64,000 nucleotides of DNA from Methanolinea sp. (lineage in GTDB: Archaea > Halobacteriota > Methanomicrobia > Methanomicrobiales > Methanospirillaceae), in the NCBI GenBank assembly GCA_018262855.1, contig JADFDO010000005.1, positions 1 through 64,000 of the forward strand. Direction: 5' to 3'. A program made the position numbers and the translations under genes. Positions within the stretch are counted from its first letter, which is position 1. Each line of letters starts with the position of its first letter. Positions 35,626-43,512 of this stretch are shown here, piece by piece. Below the pieces are notes generated by a model. The model did no database searches and was not told the DNA's origin. It was given only the letters and a program-made list of their open reading frames with translations.

Positions 35626-36257
35626 GTATTCCTGAGTGACTGGCGGGTGTAGGTCCGGAGAGGGGTCATCTTCCCGGTCGCAACCGTCCTCCCTCTTCTG
35701 ATTCCATCCAGGATCGATACGGGATCGCACGATGCATCGACAAGAGTCCTCCCGTATCCCACAAATCTTGCATTATGGGCGTCGGATCCCCCCACGCATG
35801 GTTTTCCCAGCCTGCGGGCAATTCGCTCGGCCTTCCGGTTTGCCGAACCTACGATGTACCTGCTATTGAATACCTCGATTGCATCCACCTCTGTGAGAGG
35901 CGAATGCTTCTTCCTTCCAACTCCGTGCCGCCAGATATGGTATGGGTGCGGAAGTACCACAAGTCCTCCAATCTCACGGGCGATCCGAATCGTCTCCCCG
36001 ACTCCGAGTCCCCTGGGGATTCCGGCAGTCACACCAAGCACGAGGAGATGCCCCTCCAGGGTGGAGACTTCGATCCCGGGAATGACGACAACGCGGGAAG
36101 GGATGCTCATGGCATAGAGGGCACCCTCAATGGTATCATGGTCCGTGACAGCGATGGCATCCAGCCCTACGTATTCCGCCCTCCTTAAGATCTCTTCCAC
36201 GCTGCTTTCCCCGTCCCGTGAAAAATTCGTGTGGATGTGAAGATCGCAGTTCAGCAT
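35589..36257 (-). CDS. PHP-domain metal-dependent phosphoesterase
   Basis: The 222-residue protein is a single PHP domain: DLHIHTNFSRDGESSVEEIL (metal motif HxH), AVTDHDTIEGALYAM, IPGIEVSTLEGHLLVLG, VVLPHPYHI and VGGSDAHN are the four conserved metal-binding motifs. Related proteins hydrolyse phosphodiesters such as 3',5'-bisphosphates or short oligonucleotides. It is divergent from the DHPS-like gene with only 42 bases between starts and overlaps truA downstream. Confidence 0.88.
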   Translation of the reverse strand: MLNCDLHIHTNFSRDGESSVEEILRRAEYVGLDAIAVTDHDTIEGALYAMSIPSRVVVIPGIEVSTLEGHLLVLGVTAGIPRGLGVGETIRIAREIGGLVVLPHPYHIWRHGVGRKKHSPLTEVDAIEVFNSRYIVGSANRKAERIARRLGKPCVGGSDAHNARFVGYGRTLVDASCDPVSILDGIRRGRTVATGKMTPLRTYTRQSLRNTWKKFTRGMHPR

Positions 36258-36299
36258 CTGATCATACCCTTTTTGACCTCCGTGATATTAAGAAGATTT

Positions 36300-37712
36300 A
36301 TGCGAATCCTCCTTCCCACGGGGAGAGCAACCCGGCAGATAGTAACCGAGGCTGCAGAAGGGCTTGACGCCAGGGTTGTGGTCACCGGAGAGATAGCATC
36401 ATTCCTCACCCCTGCCCAGCTCTCAGCGCTTCTTTCAAGGGAAAAATATGATATGGTGATCGTTCCCGGGATGTGTACAGCATCGTTTGCTTCTGTCGAA
36501 GAAGCATCCGGTGTCCCGGTATTTCGTGGGCCGAGGCATGCTGCAGACCTTGGGTGCATCCTTGCCCTCCTCCCGGATGTGCACCTCTCAAGGACCGTTC
36601 CCGCTGACGACTTTCTTGCTGAAAAAAAGGAAAAAGAGGCGCTTTCGCGCATCTTGAGAGCGGAGAGGGAGGCCAGCTTTCTCTACTCTGTAAGGGGGGT
36701 GAAGATCGGTGGCGAATCCAGGATGAAGGTTCTGGCCGAGATCATGGATGCGCACCGGGTCACCAATCTCCCGGAAATGGTTCAGGATTATTTCAGCAGG
36801 GGTGCCGATATCGTGGATCTCGGATTTGGATTCGATGCTACCCCTGCCCAGGTATCGTCCGCGTTCTCTTCCCTCGGCGATATCGATGGGCCTATCGCCG
36901 TGGACACTCAGGATCCCGCGCTCATTTCCGCAGCGCTTCACCGGGCTGATATTGTTTTGAGCCTTCAGGAAGAGAACATACCCCTAGTTGGTGATGCAGT
37001 GGCATCCGCAGGCGTGGCTGCCGTGGTGGTCCCCGGGAAGGCGGGACTTCCATCGAACCTTGCGATGGCCAGGAAGCGCGGGATCGAATGCCTCCTTGCA
37101 GATCCGCTCATTCCTCCGGCAGGGTCAGGCCTCGTAGAGTCTCTGGCGCACTTCTCAGGATACGGTGAACCGCTCTTTTTCGGAGCGGGAAACGTGGTGG
37201 AACTCCTTGATGCAGATTCGGTCGGCATGAATGCACTCCTGGCGGCGATGGCTGCGGAACTCGGTGCGGCTGTGATCTTCACGAGCGAGCACAGCGATAA
37301 AACAAAAGGCTCTGTCAGCGAGATGCGGAGAGCCACCGAGATGCAGGTGCTCGCGATGGGCAGGCCATACGCAAAGGATCTTGGCATCAGCCTCCTTGTC
37401 ATCAAGGAGAAACGGAGGAGGAGAGAGCCCCCTGTTGAATACAGGGAATGTATCCCTGCCAATCCGCCACCTGAGGATATCGAGTATGATCCATGTGGAA
37501 ATTTCCGGATCGGGATATCCGGAGGTGAGATCATCGCGGCCATCGGAGGACGGGCATACCGTGGCACATCCTGGACGGCCGTATTCTCCACGATCCTTGC
37601 GGCTGGTGAGGTCTCCCTCATGGATCACGCGGCATACCTAGGAAAGGAACTCTACAAGGCTGAAATGGCGATACAGTTTGGGAGAAGTTTTGAGCAGGAC
37701 GGACCGTTCTGA
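36300..37712 (+). CDS. Dihydropteroate synthase-related protein (methanopterin pathway)
   Basis: A 470-residue protein of the archaeal DHPS-related family. The central TIM barrel has GADIVDLGFGFDATPAQV, IAVDTQDPALISAALHRADI and LLADPLIPPAGSG, paralleling the pterin-binding motifs of DHPS, while the N-terminal 150 residues (MRILLPTGRATRQIVTEAAE) and C-terminal extension are particular to methanogens. It is thought to act in tetrahydromethanopterin assembly, coupling the pterin to the arylamine, but this is by family inference. The ATG at 36300 is chosen; the longer frame overlaps the PHP start. Confidence 0.85.
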   Translation: MRILLPTGRATRQIVTEAAEGLDARVVVTGEIASFLTPAQLSALLSREKYDMVIVPGMCTASFASVEEASGVPVFRGPRHAADLGCILALLPDVHLSRTVPADDFLAEKKEKEALSRILRAEREASFLYSVRGVKIGGESRMKVLAEIMDAHRVTNLPEMVQDYFSRGADIVDLGFGFDATPAQVSSAFSSLGDIDGPIAVDTQDPALISAALHRADIVLSLQEENIPLVGDAVASAGVAAVVVPGKAGLPSNLAMARKRGIECLLADPLIPPAGSGLVESLAHFSGYGEPLFFGAGNVVELLDADSVGMNALLAAMAAELGAAVIFTSEHSDKTKGSVSEMRRATEMQVLAMGRPYAKDLGISLLVIKEKRRRREPPVEYRECIPANPPPEDIEYDPCGNFRIGISGGEIIAAIGGRAYRGTSWTAVFSTILAAGEVSLMDHAAYLGKELYKAEMAIQFGRSFEQDGPF

Positions 37713-37805
37713 TGAACCTTCGGGCTCAACGCGTCACTCCATTTCCGTCCGGCTATTCCTTCCCATGGTTTAATGCCATCTCCTGTACAATAAGAAGGAC
37801 GCACT

Positions 37806-38177
37806 ATGCAGATTCGGGGTATCAGGATGGATCTCCTTGATCTCCTCCTGGAGATGGGGAAAGACCGGCACCCGTACGAGTTCGCAGGCGTGATCATGGA
37901 GGAGGGGGGACTGATGGAGGAGTTCTTCCTGCTCCCCGGAACGGTCAGCAGCAGCGAGAGTGCCAGCCTTTCGTATGATATGATGCCGCTCGATACCCAC
38001 GTCGCAGGCAGTGCCCACAGCCATCCGAACGGGAACCTTTTACCATCAGATGCCGATCTCTCTTTTTTCCCGAGGATCGGCCGCTATCACCTTATTGTGG
38101 GATATCCCTATACGCGTGATGACTGGCGGTGCTACCGCGCCGACGGGACACCATGCGCAATGGAGGTGGTGGAATGA
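37806..38177 (+). CDS. JAMM/MPN metalloprotease-like protein
   Basis: This 123-residue protein contains a complete JAMM site: E25 in YEFAGVIM and H71-S-H73-x7-S81-x2-D84 (HSHPNGNLLPSDAD). Archaeal proteins of this kind remove ubiquitin-like SAMPs from targets or process sulfur-carrier proteins. Length and motif match single-domain JAB1/MPN enzymes. It overlaps ribL by 4 bases (ATGA), an odd pairing with FAD synthesis. Confidence 0.87.
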   Translation: MQIRGIRMDLLDLLLEMGKDRHPYEFAGVIMEEGGLMEEFFLLPGTVSSSESASLSYDMMPLDTHVAGSAHSHPNGNLLPSDADLSFFPRIGRYHLIVGYPYTRDDWRCYRADGTPCAMEVVE

Positions 38178-38632
38178 GACGGGTGGTGGCGACAGGGACC
38201 TTTGACATCCTCCACCCCGGCCATCTCTACTATCTTGAGGAATCAGGAAAGTACGGTGACGAGCTCTATGTAATTGTTGCACGCGACCAGAACGTACGCC
38301 ACAAGCCCCGCCCGGTCCTCCCCGAGGAGCAGAGGGTGAAGATGGTCGCAGCCTTAAAGCCGGTGGACCACGCAGTGCTCGGCGATCTCCACGACATGTT
38401 CAGGCCGATTGAGGAGATACGGCCGGCGGTCATCACATTCGGGTTCAACCAGCATTTCAACGAGGAGAAGATACGATCCGAACTCCTGAAGAGGGGACTT
38501 TCTGCAGAGCTGGTCAGGATAGGAAGTTACAGGGGAGATCGCTACTGCAGTTCGAGCGAGATCGTCAGGCAGGTCATCGAACGTTACCCCTGTGGAAAGG
38601 ATTTCCCTCCTGGGGAAACATCAAAGGAATAA
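38174..38632 (+). CDS. ribL: FAD synthase, archaeal RibL type
   Basis: RibL transfers AMP from ATP to FMN to give FAD. The 152-residue nucleotidyltransferase has VVATGTFDILHPGHLYYLEE with the HxGH motif, RDQNVRHKPRPVLPEEQRVK, and the C-terminal SSSEIVRQVIER replacing the ISSTxIR motif. Cysteines near the C-terminus (RYCSSS, PCGKD) are typical of archaeal RibL. Together with ribK and ribB elsewhere in the window this supplies three steps of flavin synthesis. Confidence 0.92.
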   Translation: MRRVVATGTFDILHPGHLYYLEESGKYGDELYVIVARDQNVRHKPRPVLPEEQRVKMVAALKPVDHAVLGDLHDMFRPIEEIRPAVITFGFNQHFNEEKIRSELLKRGLSAELVRIGSYRGDRYCSSSEIVRQVIERYPCGKDFPPGETSKE

Positions 38633-38695: not shown

Positions 38696-38753
38696 AATAA
38701 TATTAATCTGGCAGGGTAACGTAAAGCATGTGCCGGGTTCATGAATGGAACCC
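38696..38753 (+). promoter_or_regulatory. Promoter and leader hairpin of the encapsulin operon
   Basis: An A/T-rich TATA candidate (AATAATATTAAT, 38696-38707) is followed by an inverted repeat GGGTTC (38735-38740) and GAACCC (38748-38753) with a 7-base loop, which would lie at the start of the leader. The ferritin-like gene begins at 38778. The hairpin may be an operator or an RNA structure. Confidence 0.45.
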
Positions 38754-38777
38754 AAGTCATGTGAGGATAGGATACAT

Positions 38778-39149
38778 ATGCCTGAATTTGCCACGGCATT
38801 CTCTGGAATGAACAGTGACCGGAAGCTGACCCACAGTGAGCTGGTCAGGGCTATCCGGCTGATGATCGCTGATGAGTATGAAGCCATCCAGGTCTATACC
38901 CAGCTTGCCGAGTCTATCGACCACGAGCTGGCACGGGAGGTGCTCCTGGATATTGCCGACGAAGAACGGGTGCATGCCGGGGAATTCTTGAGACTTCTCC
39001 AGGAACTTGCCCCCGATGAGGTAGAGTTCTATGCCCAGGGAGCAGCCGAAGTAGAAGCAGAGATCGCAAAAACCTCACCCGGAAAGAAGGACACGGTGGC
39101 TGAAGTGAAATCATCCGGGCCGATCACAATCGGATCCCTGAAGGAGTGA
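38778..39149 (+). CDS. Encapsulated ferritin-like cargo protein (EncFtn)
   Basis: A 123-residue two-helix ferritin-like protein. Residues E33, E63 and H66 (IADEYEAIQVY and DEERVHAGE) match, with an offset of one, the ferroxidase ligands E32, E62, H65 known from Rhodospirillum EncFtn, and Y40 matches its Y39. Such proteins form open annular decamers that oxidise iron. The last residues, GPITIGSLKE, are a typical encapsulin targeting peptide linked by a flexible segment (KTSPGKKDTVAEVKSS). The shell gene follows 10 bases later. Start at 38778 (MPEFATAFSG) after GTGAGGATAGG. Confidence 0.92.
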   Translation: MPEFATAFSGMNSDRKLTHSELVRAIRLMIADEYEAIQVYTQLAESIDHELAREVLLDIADEERVHAGEFLRLLQELAPDEVEFYAQGAAEVEAEIAKTSPGKKDTVAEVKSSGPITIGSLKE

Positions 39150-39159
39150 ACCTGATACT

Positions 39160-39957
39160 ATGACCAATAATTACCTTGGAAGGGAGGACGCTCCCATACA
39201 GGCCGGGACCTGGGAACTCCTGGACCGGACAATGGCAGATGCCGCAAAGAGTATCCTTGCTGGCAGGCGGCTTTTGCATATCGAAGGCCCCTTTGGTCTT
39301 GGACTCAAATCGGTCCCGCTGGAAGATTGCCAGGTAAGTGAATGCATGGCCGTTAGCCAGTTTGTGCCTGTTCATCTCGTGAGCACCACGTTTACCCTTG
39401 GAATAAGGGATCTGATGGCGTTTGAACAGAACGGCCTCCCGTTCTCAGCGGCTGCAGCCTCAGAAGCTGCGGTTGAGTGCGCCAGGAACGAGGACACACT
39501 GGTATTCGAGGGCGCCATGGGAAACCCTGGCCTGCTTACGATGGAAGAGACCAATTCACTCAAGCTCTCATCATGGAGCACGGTTGGGAAAGCAGCAGAC
39601 GATATTATCCAGGGCATGATACGGCTCGACGAGGCAGGATTCCACGGGCCATACTGCCTTGCACTGGCCCCATCCAGGTACAACCTCCTCTTCCGGCGCT
39701 ACCTGCAGGGGCAGAGCACGGAACTGGAGCACATAAAAAGCATCGTGACAGACGGGGTCTTCAAGGCACCCACTCTCAAGAGCGGGGGTGTCCTGCTGGC
39801 CTCCGGGAAGCGCTACGCATCGATCGTCATCGGGCAGGATATGACCATTGGATATATCGGTCCGATCGGCGACAGCCTCGAGTTCTCCATCACAGAAAGC
39901 CTCGCGCTTGTCGTGAGAGAGCCGGCTTCAATCTGCGTGCTCAAAGACAAGGAATGA
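39160..39957 (+). CDS. Encapsulin shell protein, family 1 (HK97 fold)
   Basis: A 265-residue family 1 encapsulin (linocin M18/CFP29 type). Recognisable segments are LGREDAPIQAGTWELLDRTM at the N-terminus, ILAGRRLLHIEGPFGLGLKS, LRLMAFEQNG-like DLMAFEQNGLPFSAAAASEA, NPGLLTMEE, GPYCLALAPSRYNLLFR, and VIGQDMTIGYIGPIGDSLEF followed by the E-loop region ITESLALVVREPASI. Family 1 shells assemble into 24-32 nm icosahedral compartments and load cargo through the tail seen in the upstream protein. In a methanogen this would store iron or guard against oxidative iron chemistry. Confidence 0.95.
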   Translation: MTNNYLGREDAPIQAGTWELLDRTMADAAKSILAGRRLLHIEGPFGLGLKSVPLEDCQVSECMAVSQFVPVHLVSTTFTLGIRDLMAFEQNGLPFSAAAASEAAVECARNEDTLVFEGAMGNPGLLTMEETNSLKLSSWSTVGKAADDIIQGMIRLDEAGFHGPYCLALAPSRYNLLFRRYLQGQSTELEHIKSIVTDGVFKAPTLKSGGVLLASGKRYASIVIGQDMTIGYIGPIGDSLEFSITESLALVVREPASICVLKDKE

Positions 39958-39962
39958 GAATC

Positions 39963-42239
39963 TCACTCATTTTTTCCGGAGACTCCCCCTGAGACGAGGG
40001 AGATCAGGTTAAGGGTTGCAGCCTTGTCAAGGGGCTGGTTATCACTCCCGCATTTCGGCGAGAGTATGCATGAGGGACACCCGTTCTCGCACCTGCATTC
40101 AGAAACAAGCGTTCGGGCAGTATCCATGAGTGTTTCACAGATCTCGTATCCTTTCTCTGCCAGCCCAATTCCTCCTTCGTACCCATCGTAGATGAATACG
40201 GTCGGGTCTCCCGAGTCCCCCGCGCATGGAGTCGAAAGACCGCCAAGATCCCAGCGATCACAGAGAACATGGAAGGGCATCACGGCGATCATCACGTGCT
40301 CCATCCCGTGCAGTCCACCGGCAAGATCACCATCCTGGAGGGATATTTCCCGGGTTACATCGGGAGGTACTGTGATCCAGAGCGCAGTCGTGGAAAATTG
40401 GAGTGGAGGCAGGTCCAGGGGCTCTATCCCGATGATCGTTTCGGCCTTCAGCAGCTTATACGAAGTATACTGCTCGGTCACCTCGACATCACCAAAGCAG
40501 AGGCATCCACCGGGAAGAGGCCGCTGATTTCTGCAGGTTTTTATTGTTATCCTGACACTATTCAGGGGGCGCGTATAATAGTCAACCTCAACAGGTGTTG
40601 CCTGGATCGTCCTTGTCTCAAGGCTGAAAGAGTCAATACGGTACTGTTCACCCTGGTGGAGCAGGATTGCACCGGGATGCGCCTCCCGGAATGCCTGTGA
40701 CCGGTCCATGGTCTCAAGCACCCTTCCCCCTGAAAGGATTCTGAAAGTTTCCCGGGAACCCCCATCAAGCCCCACCAGGTCCTGCGCACGCCTGCTTCCC
40801 GAGTAAATCCATCCCCTCCTGGTCTTTCCGAGGAGCGATTCGCGAGCGTGGGCAGCAACGATTCCAGGAAGGGCAGGCCCGAAGAATTCCAGGTCTCTTT
40901 TGCAGTCAAGAGGAAGTTCTGCGCCGGCACAGAGCACCTGCCCGGAGAGGATATAGGGGTTCTCCAGGTCAATGATGGCGTGTTCATGGGACGACTGGAA
41001 GAATGATTCAGGGTGATGCATGAAATACTGGTCAAGGGGGTTGGAATACGCCACAAGAAGGGCAAGTGATTCCCTGCCGGAACGGCCCGCCCGTCCCGCC
41101 TGCTGCCAGGCAGCCATCATAGTCCCGGGAAACCCGGATAGTATCACCCCGTCAAGCGAACCGGCGTCTATTCCAACCTCAAGGGCATTTGTGGAGACCA
41201 CGCCCCTGAGCATGCCTGTTCTGAGATCGCTCTCTATCTGGCGCCTCTCTTCCGGGAGGAACCCGGCGCGGTATGCACTGATCCGGGGTCCGCCGGTTCT
41301 CCCTCCGCCAGATACTATCTCACCTGCCCTGAGTGCGACCAGTTCCGCGATCTTCCTTGAACCGGTGAAGCACAGGGTCTGGAGGCCTCGACTCACGCAT
41401 TGCGCCGTGAGGGTTGCAGTATCCTGGTGCACGGAGCGGGTGTTGGGCCAGGAACGGTAAGGATTGTAGAACAGGAAGATCCTGGAACCGTGGGGTGAGC
41501 CATCCTGCGTAATCTCCCTGCAGGACTTTCCGCAGAGCCGGGAAGCAAACTGGCCCGGGTTCGCAAGTGTTGCGGTTGAGAGGAAAAAAAGAGGATCTGA
41601 TCCGTAGTGCCTTGCAATCCTCGTGAGGCGCCGTACCAGGAGGGCTACGTGGGACCCGAAGACACCCCTGTAACGGTGCGCCTCGTCGATGATTACACCC
41701 TCAAGCCCGGAAAAGAACCTGCTCCACTGGTGATGCCATGAGAGTATGTGGTGGAGTTCGTGTGGGTTTGTGAGGATGATCCTGGCAGTACGCCGAATAT
41801 GCGATCTACGGCCTGTCTCTGTATCGCCATCATACACCGCGGTGAAAGAACCCGCGTGGAGGTTCCCGTCAAGGGACTGAAGGGTCCTCAGCTGATCATG
41901 GGTCAGGGCTTTTGTCGGGTAGATGAAGAGGAAGGTCGATTCGGGATCGTCGAGTATCCGCTCGAATACCGGTAATGCGAAGGCAAGGGTCTTTCCGGAT
42001 GCAGTGGGGGTGGTAAGAACGATACTCTCTCCCGACCGGAACGCTTCGATCGCATCGCACTGGTGAGAGTATAGTTGGATTCCGCCGGAATCAAGGTACT
42101 GCCTGATACGGAGTGGGAGATCACGCCCCAGCGAACCGTAGCATGCGCTGCGGGCTGCGATCTCTTCCCTGTGCACGAAACCCGGTCCAAGGTCCGGATC
42201 ATCGGAGAGCAGGGCGGAGAGATCCCGGACTTCCATCAA
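39963..42239 (-). CDS. MrfA/Hrq1-like SF2 DNA helicase with DUF1998 zinc domain
   Basis: A 758-residue helicase: Walker A TTPTASGKTLAF, DEAH in VIIDEAHRYRGVFG, SAT-like LSTATLANP, motif IV-VI residues EVGIDAGSLDGVILSG and QQAGRAGRSGRES. The C-terminal DUF1998 region has the four-cysteine cluster CRCENGCPSCILSPKCGSDN, which in Bacillus MrfA and fungal Hrq1 binds zinc and is needed for repair. MrfA unwinds DNA 3'-5' to remove mitomycin adducts. A coupled exonuclease gene precedes it with a 4-base overlap, as in mrfAB. Repair function here is inferred. Confidence 0.9.
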   Translation of the reverse strand: MMEVRDLSALLSDDPDLGPGFVHREEIAARSACYGSLGRDLPLRIRQYLDSGGIQLYSHQCDAIEAFRSGESIVLTTPTASGKTLAFALPVFERILDDPESTFLFIYPTKALTHDQLRTLQSLDGNLHAGSFTAVYDGDTETGRRSHIRRTARIILTNPHELHHILSWHHQWSRFFSGLEGVIIDEAHRYRGVFGSHVALLVRRLTRIARHYGSDPLFFLSTATLANPGQFASRLCGKSCREITQDGSPHGSRIFLFYNPYRSWPNTRSVHQDTATLTAQCVSRGLQTLCFTGSRKIAELVALRAGEIVSGGGRTGGPRISAYRAGFLPEERRQIESDLRTGMLRGVVSTNALEVGIDAGSLDGVILSGFPGTMMAAWQQAGRAGRSGRESLALLVAYSNPLDQYFMHHPESFFQSSHEHAIIDLENPYILSGQVLCAGAELPLDCKRDLEFFGPALPGIVAAHARESLLGKTRRGWIYSGSRRAQDLVGLDGGSRETFRILSGGRVLETMDRSQAFREAHPGAILLHQGEQYRIDSFSLETRTIQATPVEVDYYTRPLNSVRITIKTCRNQRPLPGGCLCFGDVEVTEQYTSYKLLKAETIIGIEPLDLPPLQFSTTALWITVPPDVTREISLQDGDLAGGLHGMEHVMIAVMPFHVLCDRWDLGGLSTPCAGDSGDPTVFIYDGYEGGIGLAEKGYEICETLMDTARTLVSECRCENGCPSCILSPKCGSDNQPLDKAATLNLISLVSGGVSGKNE

Positions 42240-43342
42240 TCCCTCTCCCTGAAGAGGCAGAAGAGCCTTGCGAGTGAGACAAGATCCTGGCAGTTGTGTT
42301 CGACAATGGGAATCAGCGGGCCGGGGTTCTGTGAGGTGAGAAAAGCCTCGTAGAACTCGGGGACCATCATCGAGGGTACATCCTGATGACGATAGACTGA
42401 GAAGAGACGTTGTTCAAGGGTCATAAGGCGGCAGTCAGAAAAGGCATCGCGGAAGCGCCTTCTGGAGGGGTGGAGGAGATCGTAGTGGGGATTCCCGATT
42501 TCACAGTCTTCCCCATACAGTGCATAACGCTCCTTCAGGTATGGGACGTCAAAGGTCCTGCCGTTGTAGGTGACCAGTACCGTATCCCGGGAAAGGTGTT
42601 CCCTTGTAGCATGGAGTGCAGGGAGTTCCTCCTCCATGTCCCTTACCAGGTACTGGGATGTAACGAGGTGGCCATCCTGGACAAAAGCGAGGCCGATGAG
42701 GATTATCGGCCGCTGATAGATACCGAGTGTCTCAAGGTCAAGGAAGAGGAACCTGTTATCGTCATAAAGCCCGCTCGTGCAGAGGCACCGCGGATCGGAT
42801 GCCTGGTGCCACCGTGCCACGAGAAAGTGGATATCCTCAGGAGATCCTTCCTGCAGGACCTCGAGGACGTCCTTCGCAGGATCCCGGAACCTCCTGTGGA
42901 GGAGGAGATCGGGAATCGTCCGGTATCCCATTCGTTTCAGGTCTCTCTCTTTCCGCCTGCCAATACCGTACACAAGGGTTAGATCATGTTCAAGCTGCTG
43001 AATCACCCCGTCAGTGTCTCTCCCTGGGAGGTGCAGGTTGTGACTCCTGGTGATGCAATAGACAGGGCCATCCGGGGTTTCAACGATACAGCCTGGAAGG
43101 GCATCCTCAACCGGGATTCCGCTGTATCTTTGCAGGAGTGCATGTTTCAGCCGCTGGATATCGTGGTACTCAGATTCAAGAACGGGTGCACCTGAGAGAC
43201 CTGCCCGGAATATCCTGTCGTTCCTGACCACATTGTACTCAGGAGCCTGGACGATGCGTTCCCGCCAGAGTCTGCTGGCAGTTTCAAAGGCCAGGGGCGG
43301 GGTCATGGTCTTGTCAGGAATCTGTATCGGGAGATACCACAT
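42236..43342 (-). CDS. MrfB/YprB-like DEDD exonuclease
   Basis: The C-terminal domain has an RNase H-type exonuclease core: FLFLDLETLGIYQRP (D-x-E), VTYNGRTFDVPYLKERY and EHNCQDLVSLARLF (third and fourth acidic residues), the four carboxylates of DEDD exonucleases. The N-terminal part includes a helix-hairpin-helix-like segment (LTLVYGIGRRKERDLKRMGY, IPDLLLHRRFRD). B. subtilis MrfB is a protein of this kind paired with MrfA. I use the ATG at 43342 (MWYLPIQIP); the frame is open to a TTG at 43477, which would give a product of MrfB-like length, so the start is uncertain. First gene of the pair. Confidence 0.82.
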   Translation of the reverse strand: MWYLPIQIPDKTMTPPLAFETASRLWRERIVQAPEYNVVRNDRIFRAGLSGAPVLESEYHDIQRLKHALLQRYSGIPVEDALPGCIVETPDGPVYCITRSHNLHLPGRDTDGVIQQLEHDLTLVYGIGRRKERDLKRMGYRTIPDLLLHRRFRDPAKDVLEVLQEGSPEDIHFLVARWHQASDPRCLCTSGLYDDNRFLFLDLETLGIYQRPIILIGLAFVQDGHLVTSQYLVRDMEEELPALHATREHLSRDTVLVTYNGRTFDVPYLKERYALYGEDCEIGNPHYDLLHPSRRRFRDAFSDCRLMTLEQRLFSVYRHQDVPSMMVPEFYEAFLTSQNPGPLIPIVEHNCQDLVSLARLFCLFRERD

Positions 43343-43512
43343 TTTAAGCCTGACTGTGCGTTGCGAAAGTGGAGCAACCTCATGGCTTATCCTTTCAGAC
43401 ACCAACCGATCGATAAGAGATAAGTTCCGAACACCGGAACCATACGTGGATAGTTCAGCGCAAAGGATCAGGTACAACCAGTCGATGAGCGTCGTGATCA
43501 GGGATCGGGAAC

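Follow-up and report, generated by a model that had tools for sequence, protein, structure and literature searches.

The DNA analysed here, referred to below as the window, is a 64,000-nucleotide stretch from a Methanolinea genome of 2.29 Mb in 31 contigs. On its plus strand, a gene for an encapsulated ferritin-like protein (EncFtn) is followed directly by one for an encapsulin shell protein, and the following features were assigned to the pair and its leader:

38696-38707, plus strand: TATA-box-like stretch AATAATATTAAT, a putative archaeal promoter element (sequence, and A+T-rich stretches in relatives)
38735-38753, plus strand: inverted repeat GGGTTC-N7-GAACCC, a possible operator or RNA hairpin (sequence)
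38763-38766, plus strand: GAGG, likely ribosome-binding site of the cargo gene (sequence alone)
38778-39149, plus strand: EncFtn-type encapsulated ferritin-like cargo, 123 aa, ATG to stop (open reading frame, family models, PDB, conservation)
39126-39146, plus strand: coding sequence of TIGSLKE, the targeting peptide at the cargo C-terminus (a tail of this type occurs in all 35 relatives; unique DNA-pattern match in the genome)
39141-39146, plus strand: AAGGAG, the Lys-Glu codons of the cargo end and likely ribosome-binding site of the shell gene
39160-39957, plus strand: family 1 encapsulin shell protein with predicted HK97 fold, 265 aa (Linocin_M18, encap_f1, EncA in the PDB)
39298-39393, plus strand: codons of a short E-loop segment, 32 residues between the GPxG and TF anchors (anchored alignment)

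Upstream of the pair and on the same strand (36231-38632) are genes for dihydropteroate synthase-like (TIGR00284), Prok-JAB and cytidylyltransferase-like proteins, the order of which is preserved in Methanolinea relatives. Downstream, on the minus strand (39963-43477), are genes for an MrfA/Hrq1-like helicase (DEAD, MZB and WHD_HRQ1 domains) and an RNase H-like nuclease, which also stay together in relatives. The closest named relatives at the locus are Methanolinea MAGs, whose shells are 86-94% identical to this one; gene order is conserved in the close relatives, and farther loci are flanked by UvrC, chaperonins, ArgJ/ArgB and similar genes. Four relatives have, upstream of the cargo gene, a gene for a predicted metal-binding protein of the DUF2284 family (L034:4734-5372, L060:8097-8735, L061:5461-6099 and L062:7956-8594). 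The window lacks this gene; a more distant member of the family is encoded near an Archaeoglobales-type encapsulin (L077:7326-7751).

To identify the two proteins, family models and PDB sequences were compared with each. The cargo scored 106 bits against NF058679, the NCBIfam model for EncB-family encapsulin cargo (cut-off 90), 86 bits against TIGR04535, which is under that model's cut-off of 125, and 35 bits against Pfam Rubrerythrin. Its best PDB sequence match was the encapsulated ferritin domain of Pyrococcus furiosus (5n5e, 4.9e-14), followed by Myxococcus xanthus EncC. An alternative cargo start lies 11 codons upstream, at 38745, where the frame remains open, and the 123-residue reading is the better one because the alignment with relatives begins at the 38778 ATG (MPEF/MAEF). 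For the shell, Pfam Linocin_M18 gave 236 bits (4.9e-70, cut-off 24.3) and NCBIfam encap_f1 (NF041155) gave 218 bits (cut-off 100), placing it in family 1; its nearest PDB sequence was M. xanthus EncA (2.2e-37), and solved shells aligned over the full length. The first-pass annotation had proposed a 123-residue ferritin-like cargo directly before a 265-residue family 1 shell, and both genes are found at those places, each with a family model over its cut-off. Since standard NCBI models recognise both proteins, the class is one already known.

A structural model of the cargo (mean pLDDT 74) contained helices at residues 19-45, 50-77 and 79-97 followed by a disordered tail with pLDDT below 50, which is the arrangement of an FLP-TP monomer, with two long helices, a short third helix and a disordered tail. 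Its top fold matches were EncFtn structures, 5n5e and 7s8t, with large rmsd values, and trust in these matches is therefore limited to the helical core. The AlphaFold model of the shell, built from six close sequences, reached a pLDDT of 33 and was discarded.

The cargo stop codon and the shell start are separated by 10 nt on the same strand. In all 35 related loci, the cargo gene is likewise immediately upstream of the shell gene, with 2-15 nt between the cargo stop and the aligned shell start, an adjoining EncFtn gene being the mark of a dedicated-cargo operon for a family 1 encapsulin. The AAGGAG at the cargo end doubles as the likely ribosome-binding site of the shell gene, and a similar Shine-Dalgarno-like overlap recurs in many relatives, suggesting coupled translation; cargo and shell are probably co-transcribed and translationally coupled.

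The cargo ends in PITIGSLKE, and a tail of the form T[IV]G[SA][LM][KR] is present in all 35 relatives, which bears out the targeting tail proposed in the first-pass annotation. Encapsulin targeting peptides follow the consensus L(F)x V(I)x x L(I) (PMC11202242), often with GS, and ITIGSL is near to it, the first position (L/F) being Ile here and variable among relatives. When the genome was searched with a DNA pattern for T-I-G-[S/T-like]-L-K, which would miss divergent tails, the pattern occurred once, at this cargo, and no second cargo with the same tail was found. Taken with the family models, the PDB search, the cargo fold match and the 35 loci, the claim of a family 1 shell with a tail-bearing EncFtn cargo in a methanogen holds, and the Methanolinea pair is a complete two-gene set and an ordinary member of a known encapsulin family.

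A+T-rich stretches like AATAATATTAAT precede the cargo gene in close relatives. A hairpin had been proposed at 38735-38753, and the inverted repeat is exactly there, but its stem does not rise above chance: 62% of shuffled leaders reached the same stem size and the RNA folding z-score was -0.96. Methanolinea relatives have comparable stems between -43 and -49, about the same place as here, and AAGGGTT...AACCCTT is found in the leaders of three loci of a second genus. An Rfam search of the leader gave no match at a meaningful score, and the leaders aligned poorly in MAFFT. The inverted repeat may be a regulatory site.

To place the shell among its relatives, 393 genomes of the phylum were surveyed, taking more than 160 bits as a strong match. 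Strong shell matches were seen in 40 of 199 Methanomicrobiales genomes (about a fifth), including 10 of 11 in the same genus, and none was found beyond the Methanomicrobiales, an exclusivity that holds within the sampled genomes of the phylum. The weaker hits that were inspected included Archaeoglobales-type shells with a fused ferritin-like (Flp) domain (L040, L042 and L044) and one split Flp/shell pair (L041). Two capsid-like PF04454 matches in other Halobacteriota (L039:1491-2322 and L043:1473-2343, minus-strand offsets) lay amid virus-like genes; these were the two Methanosarcina-type hits inspected, and such hits were rejected as encapsulins. Because of these surroundings, a Linocin_M18 hit taken alone overcounts archaeal encapsulins.

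The virus-associated matches raise the question of whether the Methanolinea shell is itself a domesticated or remnant virus capsid, the adjoining ferritin-like gene then not being its cargo. Encapsulins and phage capsids have the HK97 fold in common, and the shell does match a phage major head protein family weakly (phrog_264, 4.5e-6); however, its score against the encap_f1 equivalog is twice the cut-off, ordinary cellular genes flank the pair in the window, and both the pairing and the targeting tail are kept at 35 of 35 loci, making a viral origin of this kind very improbable. No relatives of the shell were found in viral contigs, and the plasmid matches were DyP-type shells of about 30% identity.

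EncFtn-like sequences were also seen in viral contigs. Two IMG/VR contigs (L050:5001-5295 and L051:5001-5310), which do not differ in the 300 nt compared, have an EncFtn-type reading frame 63% identical to the cargo, between genes for a tail protein (phrog_376) and an internal virion protein (phrog_308). This frame stops at 79 aa, homology resuming in the next frame past an A5 run, and it has no targeting tail; it gave no match in an annotated phage collection. On a third IMG/VR contig (L049:4995-5618), an EncFtn-like protein of 207 aa (Pfam Rubrerythrin; EncFtn-like under the cut-off) is encoded beside one of 1049 aa that matches phage families weakly.

The first-pass annotation had noted that family 1 encapsulins are best described in bacteria. 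Archaeal encapsulins as a group are already known: Pyrococcus and Sulfolobus have Flp-fusion encapsulins that form T=3 shells, and Flp cargo systems have been reported from two archaeal phyla (PMC8346489). In those archaeal fusions the ferritin-like domain is joined to the N-terminus of the shell, whereas cargo and shell are separate reading frames in all 35 loci examined here. The P. furiosus system (5n5e, 2e0z), also archaeal, provides the nearest cargo by sequence and by fold and differs from the Methanolinea pair in its layout, the cargo here being a separate gene with a targeting tail. This two-gene layout with a free tail is an arrangement described mainly from bacteria. The nearest solved shell belongs to M. 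xanthus EncA/EncB/EncC (7s20, 4pt2, 7s5c and 7s8t), in which the cargo is again free and bears its tail at the C-terminus; that species has several cargos, against the single tail-bearing gene detected here by DNA pattern. Thermotoga maritima encapsulin with its Flp cargo (3dkt, identical to the T. maritima shell sequence in our comparison) also has a 265-residue family 1 shell and a C-terminal cargo tail. The Trp of its TFTLDLW segment, which is linked to flavin binding, is Arg in the Methanolinea shell.

The shells also differ in the E-loop, the arrangement of which influences the triangulation number (PMC11202242, PMC6668986). In the anchored alignment, the E-loop segment was 32 residues long in all Methanomicrobiales shells measured, the shortest among those compared; it was 34 residues in Archaeoglobales-type shells, 38 in T. 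maritima (T=1) and two DyP-type shells, and 47 in M. xanthus EncA (T=3) and two virus-like capsids. A short E-loop could alter or weaken shell assembly. It does not lead us to claim T=1, or to predict any T number, since the Archaeoglobales fusion shells have a similarly short segment and the related P. furiosus fusion, an archaeal shell of this short-looped type, is reported to be T=3. An archaeal-type cargo signature, a free-tailed cargo encoded apart from its shell and a very short E-loop segment make a somewhat unusual mix.

Ferroxidase ligands E33, E63 and H66 had been proposed for the cargo, and they are present and invariant at 35 of 35 loci (33 distinct rows), as are E35, Y40, D58 and E62, so that the cargo carries the expected Glu, Glu-x-x-His and Tyr on two helices. 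In Rhodospirillum rubrum EncFtn, the di-iron site consists of Glu32, Tyr39, Glu62 and His65, which have been mutated and seen crystallographically as iron ligands (PMC5012862). That protein (5da5) is about 15% identical to the cargo in the fold alignment, and its four ligands match E33, Y40, E63 and H66. Other positions differ: the entry-site residue Glu31 of R. rubrum corresponds to Asp32, the partner of E35, a position at which 18 of the 35 loci have Ala, Gly or Ser, and His57 of the outer site corresponds to D58. Asp in place of His57 is described for archaeal fusion FLPs (PMC11202242), and P. furiosus has it as well.

Ferritin (PF00210) is encoded in this genome and in most of the encapsulin-bearing genomes, being weak or absent in a few (G023, G109, G166, G169 and G192). 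This rules out the encapsulin as a replacement for ferritin, and since a normal ferritin is present, the compartment is not the sole candidate iron store.

By analogy with the characterised relatives, we consider it likely that the Methanomicrobiales encapsulin packages EncFtn rings and mineralises iron, giving the cell a reserve or an emergency sink in addition to ferritin. EncFtn would dimerise, with a symmetric di-iron ferroxidase site where the two subunits meet, and would assemble into a ring of ten (a D5 decamer). The disordered tail ending in TIGSLKE would dock these rings on the inside of the HK97-fold shell. Fe(II) would enter through the shell pores, be oxidised at the ferroxidase site and form mineral inside the shell, since the cargo by itself is unable to retain one. 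In a strict anaerobe, the likely benefit would be an iron reserve, or an emergency sink when iron is in excess or the cell briefly meets oxygen or peroxide. From the same relatives we infer expression, assembly, loading, ferroxidase chemistry, mineralisation and physiology; the role given to the compartment in the first-pass annotation, iron storage or oxidative protection, is inferred in this way as well.

Two variants of this function were weighed. The same compartment might act mainly in removing O2 or peroxide, the di-iron site using Fe(II) on H2O2 or O2 and the stored iron being a by-product. The additional match of the cargo to Pfam Rubrerythrin is consistent with such a role, as are the proposal that Flp encapsulins serve both stress resistance and iron homeostasis (PMC8346489) and the fact that storage is already covered by ordinary ferritin, but the operon has no rubredoxin domain or peroxidase partner and its neighbours are unrelated. 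The sequence cannot separate this role from storage, and we regard it as possible but rather unlikely. Alternatively, the compartment might assemble but have no O2-dependent ferroxidase, storing ferrous or mixed-valence iron or using another oxidant. O2-dependent storage is a stated puzzle for methanogen ferritins (PMC8351635), and the variable entry-site position 32 could fit such chemistry; with every ligand of the characterised ferroxidase site invariant, however, we find it doubtful, and less probable than a main role in oxygen or peroxide removal.

Packaging of EncFtn rings with iron mineralisation remains the preferred reading of the pair. A further and improbable proposal is that the Methanomicrobiales encapsulins form a class of their own, with a short E-loop, an unseen geometry, a free ferroxidase and an O2-independent iron reserve. 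If true, it would mean a second iron compartment beside ferritin, working with another oxidant or holding a ferrous or mixed-valence mineral.

A published survey of iron storage covered 326 genomes from methanogens and related archaea; ferritin, bacterioferritin and IssA were sought, and the main text does not mention encapsulins (PMC8351635). With the conserved EncFtn-encapsulin pair, present in about one fifth of the Methanomicrobiales genomes sampled, there is a further candidate compartment for storing or detoxifying iron in strictly anaerobic methanogens.
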